DNA of 64,000 bases from Patiria pectinifera (lineage: Eukaryota > Echinodermata > Asteroidea > Valvatida > Asterinidae): assembly GCA_029964075.1 (NCBI GenBank), contig CM057147.1:23705513-23769512 (forward strand), in the 5' to 3' direction. This document shows, piece by piece, positions 700 through 58,775 of this stretch (the stretch's first letter is position 1; every line of letters begins with the position of its first letter). The position numbers were made by a program, and so were the translations under genes. Below the pieces are notes generated by a model. It worked only from the letters and a program-made list of their open reading frames with translations, was not told the origin of the DNA and ran no database searches.

Positions 700-849
700 T
701 TTTGTTGCTTCAGCCAGGGAGACATCTCTCCAATGTTCCGTTGCAGCATCTGGGATAAATTCCTCAGAAACTCCCTGGTGTTGGTCTGTTTGGTGGATAG
801 CTGGTCCTCATACGGCTGGTTCCACAGTGGAGTCACTGTGTTGTTTAAC
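700..849 (-). CDS. TRMT2A: TRMT2A-like exon (linker into methyltransferase domain), copy A
   Basis: This 150-bp minus-strand exon is open throughout. It starts after a pyrimidine-rich tract ending CTGCAG and ends at a GTGAGC donor. It encodes VTPLWNQPYEDQL, a Lys-Gln-rich helix and MSPWLKQQ. I recognise this as the segment between the RRM and the methyltransferase domain of TRMT2A, the enzyme that makes 5-methyluridine in tRNA; human TRMT2A has a closely similar VTPLW...KQ...PWL stretch (from memory). It is the leftmost of six copies, so the catalytic exons, absent here, would lie beyond the left edge. The last exon base is A where copies B, D, E and F have G (copy C also has A), which weakens this donor. 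The acceptor phase (one base completing a codon) fits the exon at 38679-38788. Confidence 0.7.
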
Positions 850-1632
850 CTGCAGATTGGGAAAGGAAGTGAAAACTGCACTTAATGAGCGTCTTGAAAA
901 ATGTCATGATCGTTGATACATGTAGTTCAACTGCTATTAGCCTGTAAGTTCCTGACGTGTTTCACTGTGTAGAACACACTTCGTGCATGCAACGGTTTCT
1001 CAAAAGTACTGCATGAAATATACATGAAATAAGTAATTTGTTCCATTAAAATTGAGCGCAAAGCCATATTGTCTGTGCCACTGACAGAAATTACTATCTA
1101 CTACTGTACAATACCTTCATGTACAGTCTTAACTGTTTTCAAGGTTCAATAAAGAAAATAGATTCATTGTTTAATTGTTATTTTTCCAGCAATACAAGAG
1201 TTATTCGCTTTTGAGACATCAAACAAAAAATCTATTCCATGTTTTTAAATCATGGAACAAATTTTCATCAATTTTAAATTAAATGTGGCCCACTTATTAT
1301 TTAGTTTTCGCATGGTAGACTGTTTCTCAATCCTATCACAATATGGGAATGGGCCAGGAACCAGACCACTCACCGGCAGGATCTCATTGTGTGCAAATAA
1401 AGTGTTTTTTTCAGAAGACCAAAATATCCCCCCAAAAGTTACAGGTTTTTCTCAAAATAAAACATAAAAGGAGAAAAAGTAACCTGTAGAAAGAAAAAAA
1501 CAACATGAAATTCTTGAAGAGGACAGGCAGCATGGATTTTTAATAGCAAAAGTTGTCTTTTTGTTAACATCTACATAGGTCTACATGTACAATGTTAAGT
1601 TGGTGGTTAATTAAAGAAGTTTTGAGTGAATG
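850..1632. other. non-coding block between TRMT2A-like exon A and the GPCR-tail fossil
   Basis: No gene is visible. The block is paralogous to 11498-12290, 20829-21606, 31461-32270 and, more weakly, 52585-53330. A diverged relative of the part at about 1190-1400 also lies at 39240-39500, so that part is probably an old dispersed repeat. The short ORFs here do not have matching frames between copies. Confidence 0.6.
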
Positions 1633-2109
1633 TTAGAATGCTCTAGTCTGACTGACTGAAAGCCATCCATGCAAGGGGAACAGTGTGTACATTCAGAACC
1701 AGCAGAGAGCCAGCAGTCACTTGCAAGTACTCAGGAACAATGGCCTGGGCTGACTGGCACTGAGCCATCAGCACAAGGGGAGCAGGATGCAAATACAGAA
1801 CCAGAAGAGAGTCAATTGTTTTGAAAGTTGTCTAGAGCATTGTTCTCTGGTACCTGATGAGTGCAAGCCATCCATGTAAGGGGAGCAGTGGGCAGAGTCA
1901 GCAGATAGTCAAAATTCACTTGCAAGTAACTCTGAGATTAATGTTCCAGGCACAACAGCACAGCAGTGTGCCATAGGAGCAGTATCACCAAGAACCAGCA
2001 GGGAGTCAATCACTCAAAAACTGTCAAGAACAATGTTCCCAGGGTGACTGACTCCAACCCATCCCTGCAAGGGGAAGAACAGTCTCAAGTGTGCCAGCAA
2101 CACTTGCAA
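1633..2109 (+). pseudogene. fossil of a GPCR C-terminal tail (receptor body deleted)
   Basis: The sequence starts abruptly after AGTGAATGTTA, which in unit 2 is ordinary 5' flank. It then reads as the last part of the receptor tail (EQC...KPSMQGEQ...HPEP repeats), matching 42740-43260 downstream of GPCR5. The seven-membrane body is missing, so a deletion fused the 5' flank of one receptor gene to its own tail. Frames are broken and no product is expected. An insertion at 2110-2900 interrupts the fossil, which resumes at 2901. The paralogous fossil in unit 3 starts at about 21607. Confidence 0.7.
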
Positions 2110-2900
2110 CAATACAAACAGTTTGTACACGGCGAGTCGCAACATGAACAGCAGTATTAAACTTCATTAAGTCAGTTATTGATTACGTGAAGTGCATGTG
2201 GAACGGTTTTTGTCGCAGCAATTGCGTTTATCCCTTGCATGTGTGTATACGCCGTGTGTGTCAGTACAAGTCTACCATCACTTGATCGCACAGGCGCGCG
2301 CACGTTGAGTTGTTACTTTGTAACAACACAGTGGTGGAGTGTAGCAAAATGATGTTTGCCGTATTTTATGGCGGCCAAAGGACTGTTGAGTAGACAAATT
2401 TGTTTGGTCCTTGGTACGGGGTATTAGTTTTACCAACTGCATTGAATGACAGATCAAAATGAAGCCTACAAAATCCTCTGTACAGTGCCAAGTGTGCATT
2501 TATTACTTGAAGTAACCGTTGGGGCGTCATGAATCCGGGAACTTTCAGCGCAGTGCGCACACTGCGGTAGCCTGCCAGTCACGCTGTCAATTACGTGCAA
2601 ATCTCCGTTGCTCATTCTGCTGTTAGTCAAAATGTGTGTGTTGTCACATGTAGGGAAATGTAACAGGTACGGATGTTTAGTTGTTCATTTTGTAAAACTT
2701 TTCCTCCAGAATGTTTAAGTAATATATCTTCTAATTTAAACTCGGTGTGCATTAATCTGAAAGTCTTGGAAACAGCCATGAGGCCGTCTTTTTCTTTCCT
2801 TTGTGTAGAATCGCTATGGAGTAGAGCGCGTCGTGTTCATGCCGCTACAAGTTTACACGCGTGGTCGTCTACGGAAGATGCGACTGAACTGTTTGTAATG
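2110..2900. mobile_element. 791-bp insertion with short terminal inverted repeats (non-autonomous DNA transposon-like)
   Basis: Unit 5 has the uninterrupted site (CACTTGCAA joined to GTTGTCAATAAC at about 43259-43279), while units 1 and 3 carry this insertion at that join. The ends are inverted: CAATACAAACAGTT on the left and the complement of CATTACAAACAGTT on the right, 13 of 14 bases matching. I see no clear target duplication, so the superfamily is not assigned. ORFs inside do not resemble a transposase. Confidence 0.55.
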
Positions 2901-5520
2901 GTTGTCAATAACAATATTCCAGGATGGACTGATGCTGAGATTTCAATGCAAGGAGGCAGCGTATGCATTCAGAACTTGCTGGGTATCAGCCTCTCCAATA
3001 AACCTATGAACAGAGTTCATTAGCTCCAATGATACCAACCCATCAGTGTATGGAGAAAAGTCTTTAGAGGCAACCACCACAAAGTTGTCAAGAACAATGC
3101 TCAAGTGTACAAATGACATCCTGCATCAGAATCCACAGTAAGTCATCAAGGACAACGTGCCACGCCTAGAGCAGATGATGGCCAACTTGAACTTATACGA
3201 AATTTGACTTTATGTAAATATGCATTTGTGGTGTAGTCAGATATTAATATCCGTTAAAAAAAATAGCTTGAGTAACAACTCATTTTCTTAAAGCTATCAA
3301 CAAATTCTCAAGAATCTGAGTTTGAACACAAACAGCTAGTAAAGTAACAGAAATGTGACTTTAAAGTGAATAACCTGAGAACCAATTTTGGAATTTAAAA
3401 ATGATTGTCAAGATATATTTTTTTTCACTCTGCCAAGTTACAGGAGTTTTGTTCTGTAATCTGCTGTGTGAGACAAAATGGAAATTTAATGCGCATTTGA
3501 GAACTTTTACTTGAATGAGGTTACTGTGTATTGTCTAAAAATGAACCGGCATTATTGAGTAATTACAAGTTCTATCACAAAACTCCGACTTCATTTAACT
3601 CATAGGTTGACGCTGGCTACATTTGAAGCATGATCTCTGAGGGCTCGGCTGTGGCCGACTTTAAGTGAGTGAGTACGGGAGTCTCTTGTGGGGAGTAGAA
3701 TTTGAAATAAATTCAATGTATGTGTAAAGTCCGAGTTAGATTTTCAACAAATAACAACCCTGAAAATAAAGGGGGGGGGGAGATGCAGAGAGCACAGTGA
3801 TCTGGAAACCAAGAAGTTCACTTTCACATTGCTTCTTGTCAAATGGATGCCAATGGGAGGATTAAATGTTCATATTTGTAAATAGTTCAGTGTCGCGTAT
3901 TTATGGTGTAAATTAGGACAGAAACCGAATCGAGGACTCCTTGGTTGGAAAACGTGTACAAAACCAATGAGAGCTGTTGCAAAAAAGTTGAAGTACAAAC
4001 AAGTATGAACGAAGTACGAACAAAGGAAAAGGGAAGAGGAAGAAAAGAAAATCCTCCATTTACACCATAACCAAACATGGGTGTACATGTGTGTGTTGAA
4101 AAGCAACAAATGCAATGGTTTGATAAATGTAGTTGTATCTCAAAGAGGTTGTGTATGAGCAATTTATTTGGGGGAAAAAAGGAAGTTGTGGGGATTGTTT
4201 AAAAATGTACTCAATTACAGATTAAAAAGCTTGGAGTTAAAAACTGGAACAAAAAAAACCTCGATTGAACAAATCTACAGCCACTTTTGGGTTTGAAAAA
4301 AAATAAGAACAGTACTGTGAAGTTATTTTAACAAAATGCAGAAACATGGAAAGATATTTTAACAAAATGTAAGCAAATGTTAAACACCAAAATCCAACAC
4401 AACAGGGGCAAACTCTTCCAAATACTTGGGATAGTAAACCCTACACCTATCCCAAAATTCCCAAGTAAAGTAATTAATCATTTGCTCAACCATCCATCAA
4501 GCTTAGTCACAAAATAAGATGTTGCATTTATACAAAAGATTTGACAGGGTTGCGGTTAGACTTGCGTTTTGTGGTTAAGGGAAATAAAAGTGTGATTAAA
4601 GAATGTACATAAAAGGTTGCTTCAAATCAAATATTGGTTTGGGTTGTAGTAGACTCCATGCATAGAGCGCCCTCACTGAGGACAGGTCTTTGCTCCTGTG
4701 TAACACACGAGTCGAAGCTTTGTACTTTCATTGTCAGTTAAATTATGATAACATGTTCTCAGAGAAGGCACTCTGAGCAATGGGTCTATTGGACTCCCTC
4801 ATTTACATTTCTGGCATCTACAACGTTGGGGAAAAATGTACTGTTCATGATATACCCCGGTAGCCAATTAATTAACCATGATATCTAATACTCCTAGTGT
4901 ACTACCGGTATCTCCTTGACCAGTAATACAAGTACATGTGCATGATGGATGTACGTGTATAACATTTGAAAAATATATTTTCAGGTTTATCCACCAACCT
5001 CTTAAAGTAAAAAAAAACCAAAAAAAACCAATTGTCTGATTTGTAGTGCTAGTGTCTGTGACACTGGAATTGCCCACAGGAAAGACCTTATTTTCACAAT
5101 GTTCTTTAAACTTTTAACAAAAGGTAGCAATACAAAGTTTCAGGTGAGCGATTTGGCTCCCCAAAAACCTAAAAAACAAAAGAAAAAAACAGGTAGGTGG
5201 GGTTACTGTATCCACACTTCATTTTTAGCCTAAACAAATTTTGAGGTATGAAACTCTAAATGTAGGAAGTGCAGACTGCAATTTTACTTCCTTTAAGTAC
5301 AATGTTACTTACAATATAAACAATTAACCTAAAGTAGCTAAACCAAAGGATTACAAAATGTGTATTTTCAAACAATACACATCGTATCTTACTTACTGAC
5401 TCTAAGATAAACCCGTTAAAAAATAAAGTAAACAAGAAGAAATTTTACTTTCAACTGGGCCCTACACATTTCTTAAAGTTTCTGTTTCAACTACACATTT
5501 CTTGAGGTCTTATATTCCCT
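2901..5520. other. non-coding leader block upstream of GPCR1
   Basis: About 2.6 kb with no supported gene. The first 300 bases are further decayed receptor-tail repeat. The remainder is nearly identical to 22889-25520 and 43268-45880, upstream of GPCR3 and GPCR6. Small ORFs near 3870-4160 occur in all copies but shift frame through small indels, so they are not conserved as proteins. Confidence 0.6.
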
Positions 5521-5525
5521 GTTAG

Positions 5526-5631
5526 TATAAAACTGGAGGGATCTTGAAATAGGGCAGAACACTCCTTGCTGCATCTGAACAAAATGTTGGATATGGAGAT
5601 CAATGCTACACTGTACATGAACTATGGGTGA
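5526..5631 (+). promoter_or_regulatory. core promoter and overlapping uORF of GPCR1
   Basis: A TATAAAA box lies at 5526-5532, 98 bp before the receptor start codon. A 15-codon uORF (5584-5631) reads MLDMEINATLYMNYG and its stop codon TGA overlaps the receptor ATG at 5624. The receptor ATG itself has A at -3 and G at +4. A transcript starting about 30 bp after the TATA box would carry the uORF in a very short leader, so translation of the receptor probably needs leaky scanning or reinitiation. Confidence 0.6.
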
Positions 5632-7099
5632 TGGCTACCAAAACAGCTCCACTCTATCAACTGAAGTAGAAAAGCATCTTGAGAACTATTACAGGAACAA
5701 ACTTGCAAGTCTTCAAACGATATGGTTAAGTGTTGTAATCATTGCACCAATCGGCCTCCTTTTAAACTTTGTCTTTCTCTTCACAGTCATTCGAGTGAAG
5801 TCCATGCGTACAATCATCAACATCTACTTATCCAATCTGGCTGTGGCTGACTCGCTCTACCTTACGACTAACTTCATATCTGCACTATATTCGAATTCAG
5901 AATACAAATTCCTCACCCAAAAAGTATTCCTTAGTGTCAAATCCATGTTTGGTGCTGTTTCTAATTTCTTTGTGGTTACCATAGCAGCTGAGAGATTCTC
6001 TGCAGTGCGCAATCCTCTGACACACAAAGAAAAAGCCTCTAAATCTCGAGCAGCAAAGATATCAGCAGGACTCTGGGTGCCAACAATTATTGTTACTGTG
6101 ATTCTGATGTTCTTACCAAAGACTGTCTTCAGTAAAATCAACTTTTGGATTTCTTCTATTATCAACACTATCTGTTTAGTAGCAACTATACTTTTGTACA
6201 TCTATATAGTAGTGAAAGTGCGCAAGCAATCAGCCCTGTTGCCAAACCGTCCCAAGCTAGCAGGCAAGGTCCTCCGTATGGTTATCATCAATACTGCCAT
6301 TTTCTTCATTCTGAACTCACTGTTCATTGCAACATCAATTGTTAATATTGTGGCGTATGTAACCGTGCCTACAAACAGATCTTCCCTGACTGTTGAATTT
6401 ATTGAACTTGGAAAAACTATAAACACACTAAGTATATGTGTTAAAATCTTCCAACTTATCAATAGCTCAATCAATTCGTTTGTCTACAGTGCCACAAATG
6501 CTGACTATCGTGAAGCTGTAGTCAAGGCTTTCTCCTTCCTGAAACTGTGCTGTCGTTGCTGCCCAAGACAGAATCCCAGCCGACCATCGCAGCCAGGGAA
6601 GCAGATTGAGCTTCGTGTGATTCCACAGGCAGAAAACGACCAAAAGCACCATGCTGCCAGTCCAAGCACCAGCAAGCCACCAAGCCAAGGGCATGCACAA
6701 CACACAGAGAGTCAGCAGTCACTGGACAGCTGTCAAGAACAATGTTCCAGGCAAAGCAGCAGCAAGGCATCCATGCACAGTCAGCAGCATGTTCAAGTGC
6801 ATGTTGAGGTACATGCAGAACCAGCAGGGACCCCAGCGCTTGCAAGTTCTCATCAGGAACAATGCTCTAGTCTGACTGACTGCAAGCCATCCATGCAAGG
6901 GGAACAGTGTGTACATCCAGAACCAGCAGAGAGCCAGCAGTCACTTGCAAGTACTCAGGAACAATGTCCTGGGCTGACTGGCACCGAGCCATCAGCACAA
7001 GGGCAGCAGTATGCACATCCAGAACCAGAAGGGCGTCAATCGTTGGGAAGATGTCAAGAGCAAAGTTCTCTGGTAATTGAGTGTGAGACGTCCAAGTGA
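5624..7099 (+). CDS. single-exon class A (rhodopsin-like) orphan GPCR, array gene 1
   Basis: This is a 491-residue open frame without introns. Membrane segments lie at about 33-57 (GLLLNFVFL, Asn48), 66-90 (LAVADSLYL, Asp76), 99-123, 146-164 (Trp151), 174-198, 214-245 and 266-290. The DRY position is ERF (123-125) and the NPxxY position is NSFVY (284-288). There is no Cys at the start of helix 3 or in the very short second extracellular loop, so the usual disulfide is absent, and helix 6 lacks CWxP. Predicted N-glycosylation sites are Asn7 and Asn251. Helix 8 ends in LCCRCC (308-313), a likely palmitoylation cluster. Residues of about 340-491 form 34-residue EQC/KPS/HPEP repeats. Expected location is the plasma membrane with G-protein coupling; the ligand is unknown. 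The first in-frame ATG was chosen because it is conserved in all seven copies. An AATAAA lies at 7282. Closest relatives are genes 3 and 6. Confidence 0.9.
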   Translation: MGDGYQNSSTLSTEVEKHLENYYRNKLASLQTIWLSVVIIAPIGLLLNFVFLFTVIRVKSMRTIINIYLSNLAVADSLYLTTNFISALYSNSEYKFLTQKVFLSVKSMFGAVSNFFVVTIAAERFSAVRNPLTHKEKASKSRAAKISAGLWVPTIIVTVILMFLPKTVFSKINFWISSIINTICLVATILLYIYIVVKVRKQSALLPNRPKLAGKVLRMVIINTAIFFILNSLFIATSIVNIVAYVTVPTNRSSLTVEFIELGKTINTLSICVKIFQLINSSINSFVYSATNADYREAVVKAFSFLKLCCRCCPRQNPSRPSQPGKQIELRVIPQAENDQKHHAASPSTSKPPSQGHAQHTESQQSLDSCQEQCSRQSSSKASMHSQQHVQVHVEVHAEPAGTPALASSHQEQCSSLTDCKPSMQGEQCVHPEPAESQQSLASTQEQCPGLTGTEPSAQGQQYAHPEPEGRQSLGRCQEQSSLVIECETSK

Positions 7100-7281
7100 T
7101 CAGGGAGCACATGTGTGTTTTTGAACTGCTCTGGGATGTCCAAACTGTAGAGCAGTTTTAGGGTCTTTACATACCTGTACTGTACATTTTTTTCATTGGA
7201 AAGCCAAGTAGATTTGACGTCGAGGAACATTAACAGTATAATATGGTGGAGTTGAAATGTGTTTTACTTTAGTGGATTGAC

Positions 7282-7287
7282 AATAAA
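7282..7287 (+). promoter_or_regulatory. poly(A) signal of GPCR1
   Basis: AATAAA about 180 bp after the stop codon, in a block conserved behind genes 1, 2, 3, 4 and 6 (the gene 7 copy reads AATACA). Confidence 0.6.
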
Positions 7288-7289
7288 TG

Positions 7290-8127
7290 TACAATGTACG
7301 TACCATGACATCATTAATATGCAGCCCCAGAGCCAACTATCAGTAAAGGGACCAGCTGGAACTCATTCAATGTATGTATGCAAGTGGTTCAGAAATTACA
7401 AATTGCATTATGTTAATTGCTAGTTGAATGAGGATTTTTTGTGTGTCTAAATGAGCAAGTTTGTTTGTTTTCTGTGAGAACAAAATACATAAACATGTAT
7501 TGGCACTGGACAACCATGACATTTTCCGCTTTAAAAATACTTTTTTAAGTGCTTTTGAAACAGATTTTGAGGTGTTTATTTTGGGACATGCACCTCTTAG
7601 TAAGTTTGAGGATGCTTCGGGCTTTTAAATATTTTCATGAAAGTGCCAAGTTCCATATTCATGAGCTACGCAGTGATGTCATGAGCTGGAACTTCAGTGT
7701 CACTGCTGTTTGAGGACAAAAAGTTACAAAAGTGTTTTGGTCGAGGTTGACTGTATTTAGCATGATCATGGCACAGGGTCATAATGCACAAAGTGCTATG
7801 TGTGCATGCACAATGCAATGAATTTTTGTTCATAAATTACACAGAAAATCCCAAAGCTGTACAGTGTAAAATACCTATATTGACATCACAGCAACATAAG
7901 AAACAATTGTGAAAGTGCACAGGCATTGCAAAAAGGTATGCAGCTGTTTACAATTTTATGATTATTTTCATGTTTCGCGGAAATTCGTTCCATAGCCCTT
8001 TCATTTGGTTATTCTATTTTAATAGAGCATGAAAAATCCCAACCATGGTTGGCAATATGAACTTTTGAAAAGGGCAAACTGTATGATTATCGTTATCGAG
8101 GGTTCAATGTTAAGGGAGAAAACTCAC
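7290..8127. other. non-coding block between GPCR1 and the TRMT2A-like exon
   Basis: No gene seen. The block is paralogous to 14300-15159, 27294-28108, 34280-35120 and 47650-48491. Small ORFs are not frame-conserved. It would be intronic to TRMT2A on the minus strand. Confidence 0.55.
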
Positions 8128-8285
8128 CCTAAATCCAAAATGTCTTGGGAGGTTTGGGATCTCAATCTTGAAGATCACTGAGGTGAAGTGCTGTTGCATC
8201 AGATAGTGATAAGGATCTGTTATGGCAGCACCAGTCACCGGTACGTCAGAGGTGCTGGTGGAATGGTTATCTTGTGGGTCAAGAT
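8128..8285 (-). CDS. TRMT2A: TRMT2A-like exon opening the RRM, copy a
   Basis: This 158-bp minus-strand exon lies between a TATCAG acceptor and a GTGAGT donor. It is open in the phase expected (two bases completing a codon, then 52 codons). It encodes DPQDNHSTST, then DPYHYL and a FTSVIFKIEI..LPRHFGF stretch. Human TRMT2A has YSYIRDDLFTSEIFKLELQNVPRH at this point (from memory, shortened), the first strand and helix of its RNA-recognition motif. The exon is duplicated six times, always downstream of a GPCR gene. Whether this copy is spliced into a mature TRMT2A message or is a passenger of the array cannot be told from sequence. Confidence 0.75.
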
Positions 8286-10800
8286 CTGATACACAAATGA
8301 ACAGATTGAAAGACCAACTCCAATCAGAGAAGAAAATAGATTGAAATTGCTATTTTTAAGCATAAAGTATATGTTTAAGTCTAACATGAGCTTTCAAGTG
8401 AGACGTCTATGGATATTGTCTAGGTCTTCACTCATTACAATTATATGGGAACGATCTGACAATAGCTGTAGCCATAGCTCTAGAAGCCCGTTTCAGACAC
8501 AGCCTAAGTAACAGACAAAACAGGTTGTAAGCTATGCATTCAGAGCATCTGATTCCAATTCCAATCTTTGTGCATACATGTAGCACAACATGGAAATATT
8601 TTCCGAAGACCAAATAAGTGCAGAATTTTCTTTCGAACTTTCTTGAAAAATGTTTTAGTGAGGAGAAACCTATTGCATAGATGATTTCTTTCAACAGAGC
8701 ACAGACATACAATGTATAATATGAGACCATTGTAAGTTTTAGATTTAAATCTGGTGTATCATTAGGTGTATCATTAGCTGAACAAAATATCATGAGCTGA
8801 ACAAAATGTAGTTGATAGTTAAAGTCTGCAATTTGCATTCCACTTCTGTCTATAGAGCGTGCAAGTTTATCTCAAAAACCTCATTGTACGTGAATACGGT
8901 ACATCTGAGCATGGCACCATGTGTTATACGAGATACAGCGTGTGTAACATCCTATTTGTGTCCTGACTAGGTTTATCCAGTCAAGGGCAATTAATGTGTT
9001 CTGGAAAAAACAAGAACACATTACAATTTACAACAGATTAAGAATACTACAAATTGACGACTAAGATAAAAAGAAAAAAATGTTGATCTCAAGTTTTGTT
9101 CAATCGATCACGCAGATAACAAGTGGGTAAATACAAACATGGAAGTCTGTGGCTAGACTAGTCAGTGTTTGGTGCCAAGATGATCACATGAAAAGTGAAT
9201 GTGAACTGGCGAGACTTGCATGCTCTATAATTGTACATAATCTGTGTAGCACCACTAGTCTGTTGTATGACATTTATGAGCTCCATGTCTGTATGATGTT
9301 TAAATGCAAAGCAATATTTAACATTTCTTTTAGATGGACTCAAGGGTAGAAACAATTTGGATAATTGAAAAATCAATGCTATAAAATATGAATGTCTTAA
9401 TTTGTACAGCTAGCACAGACAAGGTTGTGTATACATGTATCTTAATTTGGACATTATTCAAGGAATTGCTGCTTTCTACATGTTCATTAAAACTGCAATT
9501 TCCTTGTGTAATTTAACACTCTAAACACAAGTAATACAGAAATGTACTATCACCAAATCGGTGTTAGAGCTCTTATGTGTTTCTGATACCCAGTAATATT
9601 TGATTCTTTGTTTTGGTGGCCAGCAGCAGGATGCAAACCATGTTTCTAAAAGTCACATCCTTTTATAAGACAAACAAATTTGATTGTAAAAGCAAGATCA
9701 GTGATAATTAAATGTGCATGTACACTAGCAACATTTATTGAAGCAGTGATTTTTCTCAATTTTGTAACCTCAATCTTGGTTGTAATTGTTGAAAAATCCC
9801 TATTGGGTAAAAGAGCTTGCTGGTCAATGTTGAAAGTACAAATATATACCCTCAATATTCATGCCACAAAAGTAAGCCAACATTGGTTAGGAAAGGGGAT
9901 GACAAGGGTTAAAGTCTTTTGTGGCTTGTTTCTTTCTTTTCAATGCTGACAGATAGATTAGACAATGCATAATATGTACATCTGTCAATCTTTCTGTGTG
10001 CTGCATTCTGATTGGTAGGTAACTAATCAAGTCCTTCGTGCGTCATCTACTTATAGGCCATGCCCCTCGACAGCCGATCCAATCAAACATGAAAGCTGAT
10101 CTAGGTCTTTTACAAAAAGGAAACTTAAGTGGAAATACGTACATGTAACTTCGTAAGCACCAAGCCGGAAACAAACAGTGTTATCTGTCAATGAAAATAA
10201 TAAGACATGAAACTGAAATGTTTGCACAATTTATCCAGGGCGAAGTTTCATGAAGACCTGATCTTAAATGACAAGAAACTAGGGGAATAACTAAGAAAAT
10301 TCCTGAAAGTTTCTGTTGCGGTGTTCATAACAGGCACATCACATGCACATCTCACATGTGTACACACTTCATATCCATTCTAGGCAATGTGCACTTTTTG
10401 CCTAGAGCACCAATACCAGAGGCTAGGGTGCTCTAGCTGATCTTTAAAAAAAAAGGAACAAAACAGAAAAGTAACGCTATGATTTCCATTGAAGAGTGCC
10501 CTCTATGATTGCTCTTTGCTTCTCTCAGAACTACTTCAACGTCATATTCACAGAATTTAATGATCAGGATTTTTTGTCAACACCTGATGATCCCATTGCA
10601 AATCCCCCCCCCCCCCCCCCCACGTACCTCTGGTCAAAACACGCAAGGAGGCGGAATAAATCCCCCACCTGGGGCATGCCGTGATTTTGGATTCTAGGTG
10701 CTCTGTGGTGCAATCTGAGGTAATTTTTGACCATTTATGTTTCTGAGCGAAAGATCATAATTTACACATCATTAACGAGTTTGGAGTAATTGAATCAGCT
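8286..10800. other. non-coding spacer, unit 1 to unit 2
   Basis: About 2.5 kb with no supported gene. The same block recurs at 15322-17586, 28267-30766, 35279-37760 and (diverged) 48650-51150; a partial copy starts right after the N gap at 18087. Near 10689-10735 it holds a stretch of about 45 bp that recurs outside the array at about 62590. The empty target site of the hAT element, TCTGAGCT, is at 10803-10810. Confidence 0.55.
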
Positions 10801-10960
10801 ATTCTGAGCTATAGAATCATATGTAGGCTACAAAAAGTGGGGAGGGGGCAAACGATATGATATCCCCCCACTTTAAAAGGTGGGGGGATTTGTCCCCCCC
10901 CCCCACCACTCCCCCCCTTCCTCCACCGATTGACGAGATTGGAACCAGCAAGCCAGCCCA

Positions 10961-11090
10961 AGCAAGCTTGGTGGTCAAGTGGTTAAGACATCTGCACTAG
11001 GAAGTAGGAGGTTGCAGGTGCAAGTCCCACTTGGTTTAAAACTTGTGAGTTTAAAATTTTAGTTTTTCATTGGGGGGGGGGGGTGTTTGC
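10961..11090 (+). repeat. tRNA-derived SINE-like repeat, unit 2 copy
   Basis: Same repeat as at 165-440: box A-like TGGTCAAGTGG, box B-like GGTGCAAGTCCCA, then a G run. It is preceded by the hairpin-forming G/C-run block at about 10842-10915. Confidence 0.5.
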
Positions 11091-11347
11091 TTTATTCTGT
11101 TTTCCTTTTTTTCAAAAACCTTTGGGAATTTCGCGTGCCTGTGGACTATACTTCAGAAAATTTGATAAAAATGTTTTGTTAATCTAAAATAATTCTTAAG
11201 AAAGATAGGCAACATTTTCTGGAGCTTTAACAAGTTTTTCGGGGCAACTGCACATGTTAGTCGGCTGTGTTTGGAAGCAGTTTGTCAAGGAAGATCACAT
11301 TTCCATTCTGGCCCGTAACCATCTCGTGTCTTTGGTGAGTAGCTCAC

Positions 11348-11497
11348 CTTTGTTGCTTCAGCCAGGGAGACATCTCCCCAATGCTCCGTTGCAGCATCTT
11401 GGATAAATTCCTCAGAAACTCCCTGGTGTTGGTCTGTTTGGTGGATAGCTGGTCCTCATATGGTTGGTTCCACAGTGGAGTCACTGTGTTGTTTGAC
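11348..11497 (-). CDS. TRMT2A: TRMT2A-like exon (linker into methyltransferase domain), copy B
   Basis: 150 bp, open, with a CTGCAG acceptor and a canonical AAAG|GTGAGC donor. It encodes VTPLWNQPYEDQL, LSKMLQRSIGEM and SPWLKQQ. Relative to copy A it carries conservative changes only and keeps a stronger donor. It sits about 1.1 kb upstream of GPCR2 on the opposite strand. Confidence 0.72.
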
Positions 11498-12520
11498 CTG
11501 CAGATTGGAAAAGGATGAAAACATTGCTCTTACTCAGGAGTCTTGAAAAACTTCATAATCGTGAATAGTTCAACTGCTATTAGCCTGTAAGTTCCTGACG
11601 TGGTTCATGTGTGGGATACACTTCATGCATGCAACGGTTTCTCAAAAGTACTGCATGAAATATAAACAAGTAACTTGTTTAATTAAAATTGAGCGCATAG
11701 CCATATTGTCTGTGCCACTGACAGAAATTACTATCTACTGTACAATACCTTCATGGCTTTTAAAGATATACAGTCTTAACTGTTTTCAAGGTTCAATAAA
11801 AAAAAAATTTCAGCAATACAAGACTTACTCGCTTTTGAGACATCAAACAAAGAATCCATTCCATGTTTTTAAATCATGGAACAAATTTTCATCAATTTTA
11901 AAATAAATGTGGCCCACTTATTAGTTAGTTTTCGCACGGTAGACTGTTTCCCAATCCTATCACAATATGGGAATGGGTCAGGAACCAGACCACTCACTCA
12001 CCAGCAGGATCTCATTGTGTGCAAATGCAAGCGAATAAGGTTTTTTTTCAGAGGGTTGCAGAGAAGACCAAAATATCCACACAAAAAAGTAGGAGTTTTT
12101 CTCAAAATAAAACATAAAACGTGAAATAGGCCTATTCATCAGTAAAAAAAAAACCCATGAAATTCTTGATAAGGACAGGCAGCATGGATTTTTAATAATG
12201 AAAGTTGTCTTTTTGTTAAAAACTACATAGGTCTACACGTACAATGTTAAGTTGGTGATTAATTAAAGAAGTTTTGAGTGAATGTTACTTTGCATAATCA
12301 GTAACTTTAACAATGTAAACAGAATTCTGTAGCAAATACACGTCATAAAAACTGAAACAAACTTAATTCTGTGCGTTCATGTCAATTGCCAGAACAAAAC
12401 TGAGTTGTCTACTTTGGTTACAGCTACTGCTGTCATGTGCATTACATTATGTCTAGAAAATAGGGAGAAAATATGAAGAAACTTTCTGTTTCAACTACAC
12501 ATTTCTCATGATCTTATATT
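11498..12520. other. non-coding 5' flank of GPCR2
   Basis: No gene seen. Nearly identical to 31461-32510 upstream of GPCR4. The first 800 bp match units 1 and 3, where the match stops at the receptor-tail fossil breakpoint. Confidence 0.55.
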
Positions 12521-12529
12521 CCCTGTTAG

Positions 12530-12635
12530 TATAAAACTGGAGTGATCTTGAAATAGGGCAGAACACTCCTTGCTGCATCTGAATAAAATGTTGGACATGG
12601 AGATCAATGCTACACTGTACATGAACTATGGGTGA
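12530..12635 (+). promoter_or_regulatory. core promoter and overlapping uORF of GPCR2
   Basis: TATAAAA at 12530-12536, 98 bp before the start codon. The uORF at 12588-12635 encodes the same MLDMEINATLYMNYG peptide as at gene 1 (only a synonymous change) and its stop overlaps the receptor ATG at 12628. Confidence 0.6.
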
Positions 12636-14106: not shown

Positions 14107-14290
14107 GGGGAGCACATGTGGTGCTTTTTGAACTGCTCTGGGATGTCCAAACTGTAGAGTCAGTTTTAAGGCCTTTTCATACCTGTACTGTACATTTTCT
14201 TCATTGGAAAGCCAAATAGATTTGACGTCGAGAAAACATTAACAGCATAATATGCTGGAGTTGTAATGTGTTTTACTTTAGTGGATTGGC

Positions 14291-14296
14291 AATAAA
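14291..14296 (+). promoter_or_regulatory. poly(A) signal of GPCR2
   Basis: AATAAA about 185 bp past the stop, at the position conserved with the other genes. Confidence 0.55.
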
Positions 14297-15159: not shown

Positions 15160-15321
15160 CGCAAATCCAAAATGTCTTGGGGAGGTTTGGATCTCAATCT
15201 TGAAGATCTCTGAGGTGAAGGCGCTGTTGTGTCAGATAGTGATAAGGGTCCATTATGGCAGCGTGATCAGTCAATGGTACGTCAGAGGTGCTGGTGGAAT
15301 GGTTATCTTGTGGGTCAAGAT
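15160..15321 (-). pseudogene. TRMT2A-like exon opening the RRM, copy b (frame disturbed)
   Basis: Same exon as at 8128-8285, but 162 bp long instead of 158 because of small insertions, so the frame is not kept. The GTGAGT-type donor remains. The whole surrounding stretch has many small indels against the other copies, so low-quality consensus sequence is a fair alternative to real decay. Confidence 0.6.
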
Positions 15322-25520: not shown

Positions 25521-25527
25521 CTGTTAG

Positions 25528-41394: not shown

Positions 41395-41502
41395 TATAAA
41401 ACTGGAGTCATCTTGAAATAGGACAGACTACATGTACCATTTACTGCATCCGTGTGGAATGTTGCAAACAAGAGTGCTACACTGTACATGAACTATGGGT
41501 GA
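41395..41502 (+). promoter_or_regulatory. core promoter and short uORFs of GPCR5
   Basis: TATAAAA at 41395-41401, 100 bp before the ATG. The long uORF is not conserved here; a 10-codon uORF at 41459-41491 and a 4-codon one (MNYG) at 41488-41502 remain. The latter stop overlaps the receptor start at 41495. Confidence 0.5.
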
Positions 41503-45881: not shown

Positions 45882-45987
45882 TATAAAACTGGAGGGATCT
45901 TGAAATAGGGCAGAACACTCCTTGCTGCATCTGAACAAAATGTTGGACGTGGAGATCAATGCTACACTGTACATGAACTATGGGTGA
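45882..45987 (+). promoter_or_regulatory. core promoter and overlapping uORF of GPCR6
   Basis: TATAAAA at 45882-45888, 98 bp before the ATG. The uORF at 45940-45987 encodes MLDVEINATLYMNYG and overlaps the receptor start at 45980. Confidence 0.6.
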
Positions 45988-47458
45988 CGGCTACCAAAAC
46001 AGCTCCACTCTATCAACTGAAGTAGAAAAGCATCTTGAGAACTATTACAGGAACAAACTTGCAAGTCTTCAAACGATATGGTTAAGTGTTGTAATCATTG
46101 CACCAATCGGCCTCCTTTTAAACTTTGTCTTTCTCTTCACAGTCATTCGAGTGAAGTCCATGCGTACAATCATCAACATCTACTTATCCAATCTGGCTGT
46201 GGCTGACTCGCTCTACCTTACGACTAACTTCATATCTGCACTATATTCGAATTCAGAATACAAATTCCTCACCCAAAAAGTATTCCTTAGTGTCAAATCC
46301 ATGTTTGGTGCTGTTTCTAATTTCTTTGTGGTTACCATAGCAGCTGAGAGATTCTCTGCAGTGCGCAATCCTCTGACACACAAAGAAAAAGCCTCTAAAT
46401 CTCGAGCAGCAAAGATATCAGCAGGACTCTGGGTGCCAACAATTATTGTTACTGTGATTCTGATGTTCTTACCAAAGACTGTCTTCAGTAAAATCAACTT
46501 TTGGATTTCTTCTATTATCAACACTATCTGTTCAGTAGCAACTATACTTTTGTACATCTATATAGTAGTGAAAGTGCGCAAGCAATCAGCCCTGTTGCCA
46601 AACCGTCCCAAGCTAGCAGGCAAGGTCCTCCGTATGGTTATCATCAATACTGCCATTTTCTTCATTCTGAACTCACTGTTCATTGCAACATCAATTGTTA
46701 ATATTGTGGCGTATGTAACCGTGCCTACAAATAGATCTTCCCTGACTGTTGAATTTATTGAACTTGGAAAAACTATAAACACACTAAGTATATGTGTTAA
46801 AATCTTCCAACTTATCAACAGCTCAATTGATTCCCTGGTCTACAGTGCCACAAACGCTGACTATCGTGAAGCTGTAGTCAAGGCGTTCTCATTCCTGAAA
46901 CTGTGCTGTCGTTGCTGCCCAAGACAGAATCCCAGCCGACCATCGCAGCCAGGGAAGCAGATTGAGCTTCGTGTGATTCCACAGGCAGAAAATGACCAAG
47001 AGCACCGTGCTTCCAGTCCAAATACCTGCAAGCCACCAAGCCCTGGGCATGCACAACACACAGAGAGTCAGCAGTCACTGGACAGCTATCAAGAACAATG
47101 TTCCAGGCAAAGCAGCAGCAAGGCATCCATGCACAGTCAGCAGCATGTTCATCAAGTGCATGTTGAGGTACATGCAGAACCAGCGGGGACCCCAGCACTT
47201 GCAAGTTCTCATCAGGAACAATGCTCTAGTCTGACTGACTGCAAGCCATCCACGCAAGGGGAACAGTGCGTACATCTAGAACCAGCAGAGAGCCAGCAGT
47301 CACTTGCAAATACTCAGGAACAATGTCCTGGGCTGACTGGCACCGAGCCATCAGCACAAGGGCAGCAGTATGCACATCCAGAACCAGAAGGGAGTCAATC
47401 GTTGGAAAGATGTCAAGAGCAAAGTTCTCTGGTAATTGAGTGTGAGACGTCCAAGTGA
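45980..47458 (+). CDS. single-exon class A orphan GPCR, array gene 6
   Basis: 492 residues, differing from gene 1 at only a handful of positions in the membrane part (for example ICSVAT for ICLVAT, SSIDSLVY for SSINSFVY) and by a one-residue insertion in the tail (HVHQVHVEV). Same motifs and same lack of disulfide cysteines. Genes 1, 3 and 6 form the 'NKLASLQT' subtype, each preceded by the long leader block. AATAAA at 47639. Confidence 0.9.
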   Translation: MGDGYQNSSTLSTEVEKHLENYYRNKLASLQTIWLSVVIIAPIGLLLNFVFLFTVIRVKSMRTIINIYLSNLAVADSLYLTTNFISALYSNSEYKFLTQKVFLSVKSMFGAVSNFFVVTIAAERFSAVRNPLTHKEKASKSRAAKISAGLWVPTIIVTVILMFLPKTVFSKINFWISSIINTICSVATILLYIYIVVKVRKQSALLPNRPKLAGKVLRMVIINTAIFFILNSLFIATSIVNIVAYVTVPTNRSSLTVEFIELGKTINTLSICVKIFQLINSSIDSLVYSATNADYREAVVKAFSFLKLCCRCCPRQNPSRPSQPGKQIELRVIPQAENDQEHRASSPNTCKPPSPGHAQHTESQQSLDSYQEQCSRQSSSKASMHSQQHVHQVHVEVHAEPAGTPALASSHQEQCSSLTDCKPSTQGEQCVHLEPAESQQSLANTQEQCPGLTGTEPSAQGQQYAHPEPEGSQSLERCQEQSSLVIECETSK

Positions 47459-48491: not shown

Positions 48492-48649
48492 CCTAAATCC
48501 AAAATGTCTTGGGAGGTTTCGGATCTCAATCTTGAAAATCACTGAGGTGAAGTGCTGTTGCATCAGATAGTGATAAGGATCTGTTATGGCAGCACCAGTC
48601 ACCGGTACGTCAGAGATGCTGGTGGAATGGTTATCTTGTGGGTCAAGAC
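48492..48649 (-). CDS. TRMT2A: TRMT2A-like exon opening the RRM, copy e
   Basis: 158 bp, open, with a CTATCAG acceptor and a GTGAGT donor. It encodes LDPQDNHSTS, DPYHYLMQQHFTSVIFKIEI and NLPRHFGFR. It is the first intact copy downstream of the putative first exon at 58595 and the one directly upstream (in TRMT2A direction) of the exons at 40485, 38978 and 38679. If the locus is transcribed as TRMT2A, GPCR5 and GPCR6 lie in the intron between this exon and 40564, on the opposite strand. Confidence 0.78.
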
Positions 48650-51150
48650 CTGATAGACAAATGAACAGATTAAAAAACAAACTCCAATCAGAGAAGAAAA
48701 TAGATTGAAATTGCTATTTTTAAGCATAAGGTATATGTTTAAGTCTAATATCAGCAAGTGAGATGTCTATGGCTACTGTCCAGGTCTTCACCCATTACAA
48801 TTACATGGGAACAATCTGACAATAGCCGTAGCCATAGCTCTAGAAGCCCGTTTCAGACACAACCTAAGTAACAGAAAAAAAATGTGACAAGTTATGCATT
48901 AGGGGCATCTGATACCAAATACGTTATACCAATCTTTGGGAATAAATTTAGAACAACGTGGAAAATGGGCTTTATTCACGAGTCGGCCATACTAAATTGA
49001 AAGCCAGGTAAATTGGAACTGACGAAGAGAAATGAAAGCAATGACATAAACTAAATTACAAATTAAAACCAGTCTGCTGTGATGAATAATTTAAAATTTG
49101 AGATTAAAAAAATAAACATACCCTAATGTTTTAAGCCACATTTAAAGAAAAAGACGAAAGTGAGGATAGAATGCACAAATAGTCTGGCACCGTCCCACTC
49201 AACAGTTCACAATTAGAAAGAACACATGCAGGGAACATGACCAAAATGGCTTCCTCGTGAATAATGTCTGTATATTCTCAAGACCAAATTAAGTGCAGAC
49301 CTTTCATTCAAGGTTTCTTGAAATTGGTTTTAGCGAGGAAAAATCTATTAAAGATGTGGGTTTTTTTAGCAGAGCACAGACATATTGTAGGCTTTGGATG
49401 TACAGTATGGGATTTAATCTGCTTTCTTCATAGCTACTACATGTAGCTGGAGAAAATGTAGTCGTTAGTTAAAGTCAGCAATGTGTATTCCACTTCTGTC
49501 AATAGAGCATGCGAGTTGATCGAAAAAAACCTGCAAGATTTTATGTAAATACGCTATATTAAGCATGGCACCATGTATCAAAGAAGCAACAACGTGTGTA
49601 ACATCCTATTTGTGTGCATTTATTTTGTGTCTTGACTAGGTTTATCCTATCAAGGGCAATGAATGGGTTCTGAAAAACAATCATTCCAATTTACAACACA
49701 TTCAAAACATTGCCATTTGATTAGGTCTACTATAATAAATTGAACAAATGTTGACTTCCGTTCAATCGATCGCGCAGACAACTATTGGGCGAATTCAAAC
49801 ACGGAAATCTGTGACTAGACTAGTCAGTGTTTGGTGCCAAGATGTTCACATGAAAAGTGAATGTGAACTGGCGAGACTTGCATGCTCTAGAATTGTACAT
49901 TGACTATGTAGCACCAGAAGTCTGTTGTATTACATTTATGAGCTCCATGTCTGTATGATGTTTAAATGCAAAGCAATATTTTACATTTCTTTTAGATGGA
50001 CTCAAGGGTAGTTACAATTTGGATAATTGAAAAATCAATGCTGTAAAATATGTCTTTGTACAGCTAGCACAGACAAGATTGTATATACATGTATCTTAAT
50101 TTGGACAGTATCCAAGGGATTGCTGCTTTCTACATGTTCATTAAAGCTGCTATTTCCTTGTGTAATTTAACACTCTAAACACAAATAATACAGCAATGTA
50201 CTATCACCAAATCGGTGTTAGAGCTCTTACGTCTAAAAGTCACATCCTTTTATAAGACAAACAAATTTGATTGTAAAAGCAAGATCAGTGATAATTAAAT
50301 GTGCATGTACACTAGCAACATTTAATGAAGCAGTGATTTTCCTGAATTTTGTAACCTCAATCTTGGTTGTAATTGTTGAAAAATCCCTATTGAGTAAAAG
50401 AGCTTGCTGGCCAATGTTGAAAGTACAAATATATACATGTACCCTCAATATTCATGCCACAAAAGTAAGCCAACATTGGTTAGGAAAGGGGATGACAAGG
50501 GTTAAAGTCTTTTGTGGCTTGTTTCTTTCTTTTCAATAATTAAATCCTGACAGATAGATTAGACAGTGCCCAATATGTACATCTGTCAATCTTTCTGTAT
50601 GCTGCACTCTGATTGGATGGTAACTTATCAAGTCCTTCGTGCGTAATAAATCAGCGTTATCTACTAATAGGCCACGCCCATCGACAGCCGATCCAATCAA
50701 AAATAAAAGCTGATCTACGTCTTTTACCAAAATGAAACTTCAGAGGAAATACTTACCTCTGTAAGCACCAAGCCGGAAACCAACAGTGTTATCTGTCGAT
50801 GAAAATAATAAGACATGAAACTGAAACTTTTGCACAATTTATCCAGGGCCAAGTTTCATAAAGGCCTGCCAAAAAATTAGGGGAATAACTGAAAAAAATC
50901 CTGAAACTTTCTGTTAAGAAAAGGCTAATTATGTACATGTGTGCACACTTTATGTTCTTTCCAGGCAATGTGCACTTTAAACTTAATGATGCAGTGCCTT
51001 GAACACCAATACTTGTGGATAGGTGTCCTCTATCTTCAAAAAAAAGAAAAAAAAGAAAAGAAATGCTTTGATTTCAAATTTTATTTTTATTTAAGAGTGC
51101 CCTAGGGTTGCTCTTTGCTTCTCTGTCTCAGCACTACTTCAACTTCTTTG
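48650..51150. other. non-coding spacer, diverged unit copy
   Basis: Paralogous to 8286-10480 but more diverged, with a unique stretch at about 48960-49260. No gene seen. Confidence 0.5.
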
Positions 51151-52434: not shown

Positions 52435-52584
52435 CTTTGTTGCTTCAGCCAGGGAGACATCTCCCCAATGTTCCCTTGAAGCATCTTGGATAAATTTCTC
52501 AGAAACTCCCTTGTGTTGGTCTGTTTGGTGGATAGCTGGTCCTCCTACGGCTGGTTCCACAGTGGAGTCACTGTGTTGTTTAAC
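52435..52584 (-). pseudogene. TRMT2A-like exon (linker into methyltransferase domain), copy F, with in-frame stop
   Basis: 150 bp with intact acceptor and GTGAGC donor, but the Tyr codon of NQPYEDQL is TAG. It sits about 1.1 kb before GPCR7. Confidence 0.7.
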
Positions 52585-53619: not shown

Positions 53620-53727
53620 TATAAAACTGGAGTGATCTTGAAATAAGACAGAATACTCTTTGCTGCATCTGAATATTTTATATTGGATATGGAGATCAAT
53701 GCTACACTGTACATGAACTATGGGTGA
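53620..53727 (+). promoter_or_regulatory. core promoter and overlapping uORF of GPCR7
   Basis: TATAAAA at 53620-53626, 100 bp before the ATG. The uORF starts at the second Met (53689-53727: MEINATLYMNYG) and overlaps the receptor start at 53720. Confidence 0.6.
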
Positions 53728-55177
53728 TGGCTACCAAAACAGCTCCACTCGGTCACCTGAAGTAGAAAAGCATATTGAGAACTATTACAAGAGTCGAGAC
53801 AGAGGGGATCAAATGGTATGGTTAAGTGCTGAAATCATCGCACCAATCGGCCTCCTCTTAAACTTTGTCTTTCTCTTCACAGTCATTCGAGTGAAGTCCA
53901 TGCGTACAATCATCAACATCTACTTATCCAATCTGGCTGTGGCTGACTTGCTCTTCCTTATGACTCAATTTATATTTGCATTGTTCTCACCCATAGAGTA
54001 CACCTTCTTAGGGCATAAAGCATTCCTAAGTGTCAAATACATGCTTGTTACTGTTTCTAATCTCCTTGTGGTTACCATAGCAGCTGAGAGATTCTCTGCA
54101 GTGCGCAATCCTCTGACCTTTAAAGAAAAAGCCTCCAAATCTCGAGCAGCAAAGATATCAGCAGGACTCTGGGTGCCAACAATTATTGTTGCTGTGATTC
54201 TGATATTCTTACCAGAGACCGTCTTCAACGGCATCTTTTTTGGGATTTATTTCATTATCAACACTACCTGTTTAATAGCAACTCTTGCTTTGTACGTCTA
54301 TGTAGTAGTGAAAGTATGCAAGCAATCAGCCCTGTTTCCAAACCGTCCCAAGCGAGCAGGCAAGGTCCTCTGTATGGTTATCATCAATACTGCTATTTTC
54401 TTTGCCTTGAACTCACTGCGTACTGCAAATGCAATTATTACAATAGTGGCAAGAACTTATTCATTGCCTGCCCAGAATGTTGCCCTTCTAGAACTTGGAG
54501 AAATAGACAATATTCTGGTTGTATGCACAGAAATTTTGCAAATTATAAATAGCTCAATCAATTCGTTAGTCTACAGTGCCACAAACGCTGACTATCGTGA
54601 AGCTGTAGTCGAGGCTTTCTCATTCCTCAAACTGTGCTGTCGTTGCTGCCCAAGACGGAATCCCAGCCGACCATCGCAGCCAGGGAAGCAGATTGAGCTT
54701 CGTGTGATTCCACAGGCAGAAAATGACCAAGAGCACCGTGCTGCTAGGCCAAGCAGCAGCAAGCCACCAAGCCAAGGGCATGCACAACACACAGAGAGAC
54801 AGCAGTCACTGGACAGCTGTCAAGAACAATGTTCCAGGCAAAGCAGCAGCAAGGCATCCATGCACAGTCAGCAGCATGTTCAAGTGCACGTTGAGGTACA
54901 TGCGGAACCAGCAGGGACCACAGCACTTGCAAGTTCTCATCAGGAACAATGCTCTAGTCTGACTGACTGCAAGCCATCCATGCAAGGGGAACAGTGTGTA
55001 CATCCAGAACCAGCAGAGAGCCAGCAGTCACTTGCAAGTACTCAGGAACAATGTCCTGGTACCGAGCCATCAGTACAAGGTGAGCAGTATGCACATCCAG
55101 AACCAGAAGGGAGTCAATCGCTGGAAAGATGTCAAGAGCAAAATTATCTGGTAACTGAGTGCAAGCCATCCAAGTAA
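53720..55177 (+). CDS. single-exon class A orphan GPCR, array gene 7
   Basis: 485 residues, family plan. Distinct extracellular parts: N-terminus SSTRSPEVEKHIENYYKS, first loop TQFIFALFSPIEYTFLGH, second loop PETVFNGIFFGIYF, helix 6-7 region ARTYSLPAQNVALLELG. Third intracellular loop has Cys in KVCKQSALF. Helix 7 reads NSSINSLVYSATNADYR. The tail has lost a few residues of one repeat (QCPGTEPSVQGEQ) and ends TECKPSK. The usual poly(A) signal is changed to AATACA at about 55360. Last intact receptor of the array. Confidence 0.9.
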   Translation: MGDGYQNSSTRSPEVEKHIENYYKSRDRGDQMVWLSAEIIAPIGLLLNFVFLFTVIRVKSMRTIINIYLSNLAVADLLFLMTQFIFALFSPIEYTFLGHKAFLSVKYMLVTVSNLLVVTIAAERFSAVRNPLTFKEKASKSRAAKISAGLWVPTIIVAVILIFLPETVFNGIFFGIYFIINTTCLIATLALYVYVVVKVCKQSALFPNRPKRAGKVLCMVIINTAIFFALNSLRTANAIITIVARTYSLPAQNVALLELGEIDNILVVCTEILQIINSSINSLVYSATNADYREAVVEAFSFLKLCCRCCPRRNPSRPSQPGKQIELRVIPQAENDQEHRAARPSSSKPPSQGHAQHTERQQSLDSCQEQCSRQSSSKASMHSQQHVQVHVEVHAEPAGTTALASSHQEQCSSLTDCKPSMQGEQCVHPEPAESQQSLASTQEQCPGTEPSVQGEQYAHPEPEGSQSLERCQEQNYLVTECKPSK

Positions 55178-55461: not shown

Positions 55462-55548
55462 CGCAAATTCAAAATGTCTTGGGAGGTTTTGGATTTCAAT
55501 CTTGAAGATCTCTGAGGAAAAGTGCTGTTGCGTCAGGCAGTGATAAGT
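55462..55548 (-). pseudogene. TRMT2A-like exon opening the RRM, copy f (truncated)
   Basis: The donor side is kept (SEIFKIEIQNLPRHFEFA then GTGAGT), but the first half of the exon and its acceptor are deleted; sequence passes directly into what is normally upstream intron (AAATGAACAG). Confidence 0.7.
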
Positions 55549-55745
55549 ATCAAATGAACAGAATAAAAGACCAACTCCAATGACAGAAGAAAATAAATTA
55601 AATTCATTTTTCGAGTCAAGTTATTAAGCACAAGATGAGTTTTCAAGTGAGACATTGCACAACAAAATCAGTCCACAATAACAAACAGATCAATAAATGT
55701 TAAATTTTGAATAAGAATTAGCCTTCCAAAGTTCAATAGTCTTAA

Positions 55746-58129: not shown

Positions 58130-58131
58130 TA

Positions 58132-58590
58132 GTGCCTTAAACTGGATGGTTTCCCAGAAATTAAATTACCAGTTTCTACAGTTTATTTAAGCTGCATTTG
58201 TAGGCCTATGTGTAAAACAAACACAAATAATAGAGATGCATGTACTATTATCAGTCTGGTATTTGAGTTAATCTGTCATTCTGATACTAATCAATGACTT
58301 GTAATGTTTTGAAGTTTTTTTTTTATGGACTTTGTAATCAATCAAAGAATGAATTATATGAATGGCTCTGTTAAGTCTGCATTCATTCATCACAAACTAA
58401 CAAGTTTGTCAGTTCAACAAAGCTGCACATGCATTTCATATCAAACTGAACCGTCAATCCACCAATTAAAACAAAAAGGAAAACAATGTGTTGCAATGAG
58501 CAAAAATTGACTAAATCACATAAATGGGATTATACACTTAGCTGACCGGGAAAAATAACAAACGTCTTCAACAAGTAAAAGAATGCAAAA
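58132..58590. other. non-coding sequence between the foldback element and TRMT2A exon 1
   Basis: Weak continuation of the array spacer (TTTACAGTTTATTTAAGC, AATAATAGAGATGCATGTACTATTATCA-like text). No gene seen. Confidence 0.4.
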
Positions 58591-58594
58591 TCAC

Positions 58595-58775
58595 CTTTGG
58601 ATTTGTCCTCCTTATCTTCATTGGGAATAGCATCCATAGTGATGGCCACATCTGTTGGCATCTTGACAACATCACCCTCCGTAACTGTGGTTGACGTTAC
58701 CTCCCCAGTTGGGACATCATCAGAAGTTGGTCCCTGCTTCTCATCCATTTTGGTGAATGTTGGACCAAAGTCACA
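58595..58775 (-). CDS. TRMT2A: probable first coding exon of TRMT2A
   Basis: Minus-strand open stretch ending at an AAAG|GTGATT donor. An ATG at 58746-58748 has a strong context (AAAATGG) and opens MDEKQGPTSDDVPTGEV, a Thr/Asp/Glu-rich, low-complexity N-terminus like that preceding the RRM in vertebrate TRMT2A. From the ATG it gives 51 codons plus one base, exactly the phase needed by the RRM-opening exons (8128, 35121, 48492). An acceptor-like TTCCAG at 58776 suggests that a 5' UTR exon may be spliced to it. Identity rests on phase and position more than on sequence, which is too biased to be diagnostic. Confidence 0.5.

Follow-up and report, generated by a model that had tools for sequence, protein, structure and literature searches.

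Receptor gene clusters usually grow through receptor copies with anonymous flanks. The RCCX module lies beside its neighbours, and TNXA is a cut-off piece of a gene. In the human MHC this module has been duplicated with whole genes and with pseudogene copies of its neighbours such as TNXA, according to the sections available to us of two sources (PMC3161346, PMC9956258). The crown-of-thorns starfish carries tandem arrays of rhodopsin-like olfactory receptors, as set out in the available part of a third (PMC5442662). Here we describe a receptor array in the starfish Patiria pectinifera that is interleaved with exons of TRMT2A, a tRNA methyltransferase gene. The window, by which we mean the whole 64,000-nucleotide stretch that was analysed, is C19:23705513–23769512, and the genome searched comprised 613,548,705 bases. 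Among the publications on nested genes that our searches matched, titles and the openings of abstracts described no similar case, and TRMT2A combined with 'nested gene' returned nothing. Among the matches listed, those for TRMT2A with echinoderm terms included none on TRMT2A, and those for TRMT2A with 'exon' had no title on this subject.

Receptor genes and host exons in the window

The window contains seven plus-strand rhodopsin-type GPCR genes in its list of open reading frames, six open and one frameshifted. The open genes (5624..7099, 12628..14106, 32612..34090, 41495..42925, 45980..47458 and 53720..55177) have uninterrupted frames of 476–492 codons, and the frameshifted gene (25626..27108) is represented by two overlapping frames. 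Relics of GPCR 3' ends lie at 1637..2073 (plus strand), 21608–22017 and 43018–43237. When compared with the receptor at 32612, the other six window receptors showed 77–84% protein identity. Pfam 7tm_1 scored two of the seven, those at 5624 and 32612, above its cut-off (66 and 63.4 bits against 30.5; E values of 5e-18 and 3e-17), and the best relatives of one window GPCR in the PDB were somatostatin and other receptors. Receptor rates were taken from rows free of frameshifts and with no more than two stops, of which six came from the window. In the six open window receptors, the transmembrane part had a pS of 0.179 and a pN of 0.135 (ratio of 0.75), and the C-terminal tail had a pS of 0.075 and a pN of 0.040 (ratio of 0.54). 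Variation appears to be concentrated in the membrane region, a pattern that would suit chemoreceptors. With this pattern and with open frames in most of them, the receptors are likely to be the product under selection.

Exactly 16 TRMT2A exon segments lie on the minus strand between 702 and 58748, so that the alternation of 16 segments with seven receptor genes in the original prediction was counted correctly. Exons x1, x3, x4 and x5 are each present once, and x2 and x6 six times each. The x1 segment (58596..58748), which begins with ATG and starts MDEKQGPTSDDV, forms the 5' end of the host copy and matches the intact gene described below at 51/51 amino acids. Copies of x2 are found at 55462..55551 (acceptor and 5' part replaced), 48492..48632, 35121..35261, 28109..28249, 15160..15304 (frameshifted) and 8128..8268. 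Those of x6 are found at 52437..52583 (with an in-frame stop), 38281..38398 (damaged), 31313..31459, 20681..20827, 11350..11496 and 702..848. The RRM exons x3 (40487..40573, acceptor AG lost) and x4 (38978..39052, with an in-frame stop) are accompanied by the linker exon x5 (38681..38806). GT/AG borders had been described for these segments: GT is present at all 16 donors, and 13 of the 15 x2–x6 segments retain the intact gene's acceptor AG, which is lost at x2 (55551) and x3 (40573). Damage to the 16 exons amounts to two stops, one frameshift, two lost parts and one more lost acceptor.

We searched 177,635 distinct PDB sequences with a joined 126-residue peptide, a composite of exon copies with the stop of x4 entered as a residue. 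The top two matches were 7pv5 (fly FI05218p; E = 8.9e-18) and 7ntn (human TRMT2A; E = 3.9e-16), which bears out the proposed assignment to the RRM and linker of TRMT2A. Pfam RRM_1 remained below its cut-off on this peptide (15.1 versus 20.7 bits), and a genome-wide search with this profile (PF00076; 150 of 244 candidates scored) returned 129 matches, none of them in the window. We conclude that the window segments are confirmed as TRMT2A exons x1–x6.

An apparently intact host gene, a broken second copy and a shared junction

An apparently intact TRMT2A is located 2 Mb from the window on the minus strand (C19:21744409–21725012). Its exons x1–x6 join into an open protein in phases 1, 0, 2, 0, 2, exactly as had been proposed from the window alone. 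Downstream exons encode CCGTGTIG, DPPRPG and a Cys motif (here SCHP); CCGTGTIG, DPPRPG and SC-P are what we take to be motifs of the methyltransferase family. The joints modelled in this gene are those of x1–x6; some exons downstream of x6 were not found, which counts against the history proposed below. In a genome search with joined exon peptides, the methyltransferase exons x9–x13 matched solely at this locus and at a related gene on C12. A PF05958 profile search of the genome recovered the C12 gene only and missed the intact TRMT2A, probably because its exons are short. The x2–x3 intron of the intact gene holds a single GPCR on the opposite strand (C19:21739766–21741217), and another GPCR copy, which has no matched exons, is found about 7 kb past the 3' end (21716764–21718158). 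The intact TRMT2A with its single GPCR is supported as the unduplicated nested founder of the array.

The array itself occupies a second, broken TRMT2A, between its first exon and its decayed methyltransferase exons. Mapped on the intact gene, the window and its left flank form one gene stretched by repeated blocks, and the span from x1 to x16 is 70.5 kb here versus 19.4 kb in the intact gene. From the right end, x1 is followed by repeats with x2, a GPCR, x3–x5 (once in the window) and x6. Left of the window there is one further GPCR unit, and then x14 (with a stop), x15 and x16 (with stops), the decayed remains of the methyltransferase exons for which a search there had been proposed. Exons x7–x13 were not found at the window locus, nor was a C-terminal uracil-5 methyltransferase domain. 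Six of the seven window receptors have no adjoining x3–x5; mapping on the intact gene identified the unit of the receptor at 41495 as the sole window unit that retains them. In each of the five mapped stretches with a GPCR, the receptor and the exons are on opposite strands, the arrangement of the intact gene. Judged from its sequence, the window locus is probably a gene remnant with no working TRMT2A. The suggestion that a housekeeping gene became the scaffold of a receptor expansion therefore holds in that a TRMT2A copy hosts the array, but this is a second copy and the working gene was not consumed.

Borders between units share a recurrent junction at which intron 1 is fused to an intron that lies downstream of x7; at finer scale, the sequence of intron 1 continues into intact-gene position ~21733.02 kb. 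The point joint is present at 9589, 29564 and 36571 (within 9490..9866, 29465..29843 and 36472..36848, respectively), left of the window and on C6. At 50110..50453 both sides are present and the joint itself (50209) is deleted or altered, at 16700..17000 only the right half is found, and on C32 both sides are present with the joint altered. Eight junction stretches are 84–98% alike. As the junction is shared by unit borders and absent from the intact gene, it points to one founding intragenic tandem duplication. The largest repeat inside the window is a superduplication of about 17.5 kb, in which 1..17586 is 93% identical to 20007–37433, with the copies about 20 kb apart.

Carriage of the exons by a transposon was rejected, as the long blocks are present in few copies, run colinear with the intact gene and have one junction in common. 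The original prediction had considered that an intact TRMT2A might exist elsewhere and that the segments might match only a repeat family; the former is true and the latter false. Inverted repeats of at least 400 bases were not found in the window with 30-base seeds, and BLAST returned one of about 530 bases at 80%.

Matching exons occur elsewhere in the genome. A composite x2-x3-x4-x6 query gave 65 genome matches, located on C19 (19.77–20.36, 21.73, 22.78–22.84 and 23.69–23.76 Mb), on C6 (9.16–9.76 and 16.6 Mb) and on C20, C32 and C310. We found 16 copies of x1 in the genome, seven on C19 and nine on C6. Exon x7 matched at ten array places, x14 and x15 also matched in the broken left flank of the window, and x16 matched in this flank and twice at C19:22.847 Mb. 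GPCR family members without nearby matched TRMT2A exons are found on C14, C2, C7 and at other C19 places. We built a tree of 32 GPCRs drawn from 91 match rows (including three of the C14 copies), with a very long C1 row as outgroup and an unsure root. Seven receptors unlinked to TRMT2A exons formed a separate supported group (100/100), and three unlinked C19 copies and the C7 copy fell among the 20 TRMT2A-linked rows. A single strict clade of these 20 sampled linked receptors was rejected (AU, P = 0.0003), an observation that counts against the history set out below; receptors would therefore have left the host context, or entered it, more than once. A wider group of 24 rows, made by adding the three unlinked C19 copies and C7 to the linked rows, was not rejected when set against the seven unlinked receptors and the outgroup (P = 0.365), nor was this group without C7 (P = 0.409).

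We consider it highly probable that the locus arose as follows. A single-ORF GPCR would have sat antisense in the x2–x3 intron of TRMT2A, the arrangement still present in the intact gene. Presumably in a second copy of the locus rather than in the first, an intragenic tandem duplication of about 10 kb, reaching from an intron downstream of x7 into intron 1, would have copied a block that carried x2–x7 and the receptor. Unequal exchange among units may then have built the array, and larger segmental copies may have spread it to other places on C19 and to C6 and C32. In the window, x7 would have been lost, as would x3–x5 beside six of the seven receptors. The host copy would also have lost its catalytic half, leaving its exons as leftovers between receptors. 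The window copies of x2 (four of six usable) speak for leftovers, as they diverge near the flank rate (pS of 0.106, pN of 0.064, flanks 0.102). With its nested founder and shared junction, the locus supports its first reading as an amplification of a receptor nested in a TRMT2A intron together with host exons. This history leads us to expect x7 in each unit, and its absence from the window counts against it.

Conservation of the copied exons

Copied exons mostly diverge 4–6 times less than the flanking introns. Divergence between copies was 4.7% for x2 and 4.7% for x6 versus 18–29% for flanks, a value partly inflated by the alignment of indels; this is more conservation than plain leftovers predict, and it counts against the history above. 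Passenger exons, as the original prediction had called them, are mostly more conserved than the term suggests. Divergence and rate tests excluded six x2 rows whose 5' half was broken or shifted, leaving 24 copies and the parent; the overall x2 pN/pS of 0.53 still includes these six rows. The pattern could reflect a function lost recently, gene conversion limited to exons, or a function still retained. It varies among groups of copies, and protein-level selection does not account for all of it.

The host copy may long have been a full working TRMT2A that was broken only recently, so that its exons retain past constraint. We regard this as possible, though only tentatively, and as the most credible of the alternatives. 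All exons of the window compared with the intact gene gave a pN/pS of 0.34, and values from the left flank (0.37), C32 (0.22), C6 at 9.53 Mb (0.23), C19 at 19.79 Mb (0.37) and the two x16 copies (0.48) complete a range of 0.22–0.48 that such constraint would explain; within the window, x2 is nearer to neutral (0.61). Exon pS, however, is about 0.11, which is half of the flank divergence and of the pS of the receptor transmembrane part (0.228), and synonymous sites are therefore too alike as well.

This similarity at synonymous sites is what would be expected of conversion by the working TRMT2A that is limited to exons because the introns are too diverged to convert, a reading that we consider unlikely. 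Divergence falls at exon limits at all sites, synonymous ones included; the broken 3' end has islands of identity at x14 and x15; and the receptor tail has a lower pS than the transmembrane part in the same units. Yet islands of identity also occur outside exons, the introns around x4–x6 on C32 are alike too, the pattern spans two chromosomes, and homogenisation does not reach the 31 bases that precede the ATG of the window x1 (5 of the 27 compared differ from the intact gene). The simplest explanation of exon conservation is a mixture of past function that was recently lost and some exon-limited conversion.

It is improbable, in our estimate, that the exon copies are still used in the array loci, either in a spliced antisense transcript driven from x1 or in a short N-terminal TRMT2A protein. 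Exon x1 speaks for such use. Between the window x1 and the intact gene, 1/154 bases differ, as do 26/115 in the adjoining downstream intron (Fisher, 7e-10); compared with the C19:19.80 copy, the differences are 0/154 and 35/152. Each of the 16 x1 copies recovered has an open frame and a GT donor; one carries an in-frame insertion of 3 bases, and 15 of the 16 show 98–100% amino acid identity. That x1 is open throughout exceeds what plain leftovers predict and counts against the proposed history. With one hand-chosen copy per exon, x1 was more alike than the other window exons (1/153 versus 27/576 differences, P = 0.017). Donors are also kept, as GTGAGT in 31/31 x2 rows and as GT in 16/16 x6 rows, counted among fetched copies with gapless matches that reach the exon end, the x2 rows including the parent. 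Counting distinct changes, we found a modest synonymous excess in x2 (all copies, P = 0.019; outside the window, P = 0.011) and in window x6 (P = 0.014; pN/pS of 0.20 in five usable copies), the latter again counting against plain leftovers.

Against continued use, x2-to-x6 and x2-to-x2 joins are out of phase, and the window exons carry the stops, frameshift, lost parts and lost acceptor listed above. The excess was not significant for window x2 (P = 0.36), all x6 (P = 0.062) or x6 outside the window (P = 0.20). Window x2 copies, as already noted, diverge near the intron rate, and four x6 copies at C19 19.8–20.1 Mb are no more alike than their flanks (pS of 0.054, pN of 0.039, flanks 0.018). 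Exon x1 is conserved at synonymous sites as well, which protein selection alone does not explain, and sequence further upstream of the window x1 gave no alignment with the intact gene. A bolder version is, in our judgement, slightly less probable again: the repeated exons, rather than being debris, might serve as an antisense framework, with a transcript that runs from the conserved x1 through the whole array and is spliced at the retained sites, influencing receptor choice. If true, a receptor cluster would have acquired a control element from the exon–intron skeleton of a housekeeping gene.

An assembly artefact, from uncollapsed haplotypes or a mis-joined repeat, might be suggested by a 500-base N gap (17587–18086) with the same intronic block on both sides and by the 17.5-kb repeat at 93%, but it is very improbable, as a 7% difference with indels exceeds usual heterozygosity, gene content differs among units and the same junction recurs on C6 and C32.

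Comparison with known systems

The founding event can be read here because the sequences beside the receptors can be recognised as exons of a known gene, and the array is unusually readable because its founder survives. It thus offers a phase-marked record of the birth of a cluster, with a surviving unduplicated founder as a reference, and raises the question of why exon fragments that have no catalytic half are mostly better conserved than their introns. The window resembles TRMT2A in that x2–x5, in order and phase, encode the RRM and linker, and differs from it in that its exons are repeated, some of them stopped, and the catalytic half is missing or decayed at the locus. Compared by description, the olfactory receptors of the crown-of-thorns starfish (ApORs) and the surreal-GPCRs of sea urchins likewise form tandem arrays of similar rhodopsin-like receptors, but the available part of that account mentions no host-gene exons between receptors (PMC5442662). 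As in RCCX, going by the portions of the sources available, the units of the window are a duplicated module that carries gene pieces, but here a single host gene contains the module, and a host intron holds the amplified gene. Tandem modules that carry gene pieces are already known; this array sits inside a broken copy of its host.

Insertion and duplication around TRMT2A exon 1

Intron 1 of the intact TRMT2A gene carries a 610-base insertion (C19:21743294-21743903; C19 is CM057147.1) with terminal inverted repeats of 21 bases and the target duplication ACTT; it is a MITE-like element. The insertion was missing from all three of the array intron 1 copies that were read (window, C32 and C19 at 19.79 Mb). 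On C6, another sequence of the same genome, nine copies of exon 1 lie within 9.18-9.88 Mb at spacings of 39-127 kb; their flanks diverge by 0-11%, mostly by less than 6%, and the copies are the product of recent large segmental duplications.

Repeats and receptor tails in the window

A gap of 500 N (17587-18086) is flanked on either side by an intronic block, found at 16858-17450 and again at 18166-18731. Between exons 2 and 1 of the broken TRMT2A copy that hosts the array, 56401-58091 contains an inverted repeat pair, 56401-56924 and 57155-57690, and overlapping direct repeats. The C-terminal tails of the window GPCRs contain repeated Q/S/C-rich motifs and show lower synonymous divergence than the transmembrane part, which hints at gene conversion.

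Other methyltransferase sequences and the cysteine motif

A second TRMT2-type methyltransferase was found at C12:9010712-9013772, with 58% identity to the TRMT2A query over one stretch. The genome search for RRMs placed none near it among the matches listed, and it is probably TRMT2B-like. The last TRMT2A exon, x16, is present in two tandem copies, both open, at C19:22847097-22848083, accompanied by no matches to the remaining methyltransferase. The exon aligned with the catalytic cysteine motif reads SCHP in intact TRMT2A (C19:21726000) and SCYP in the decayed copy (C19:23694800); the expected form is SCNP.
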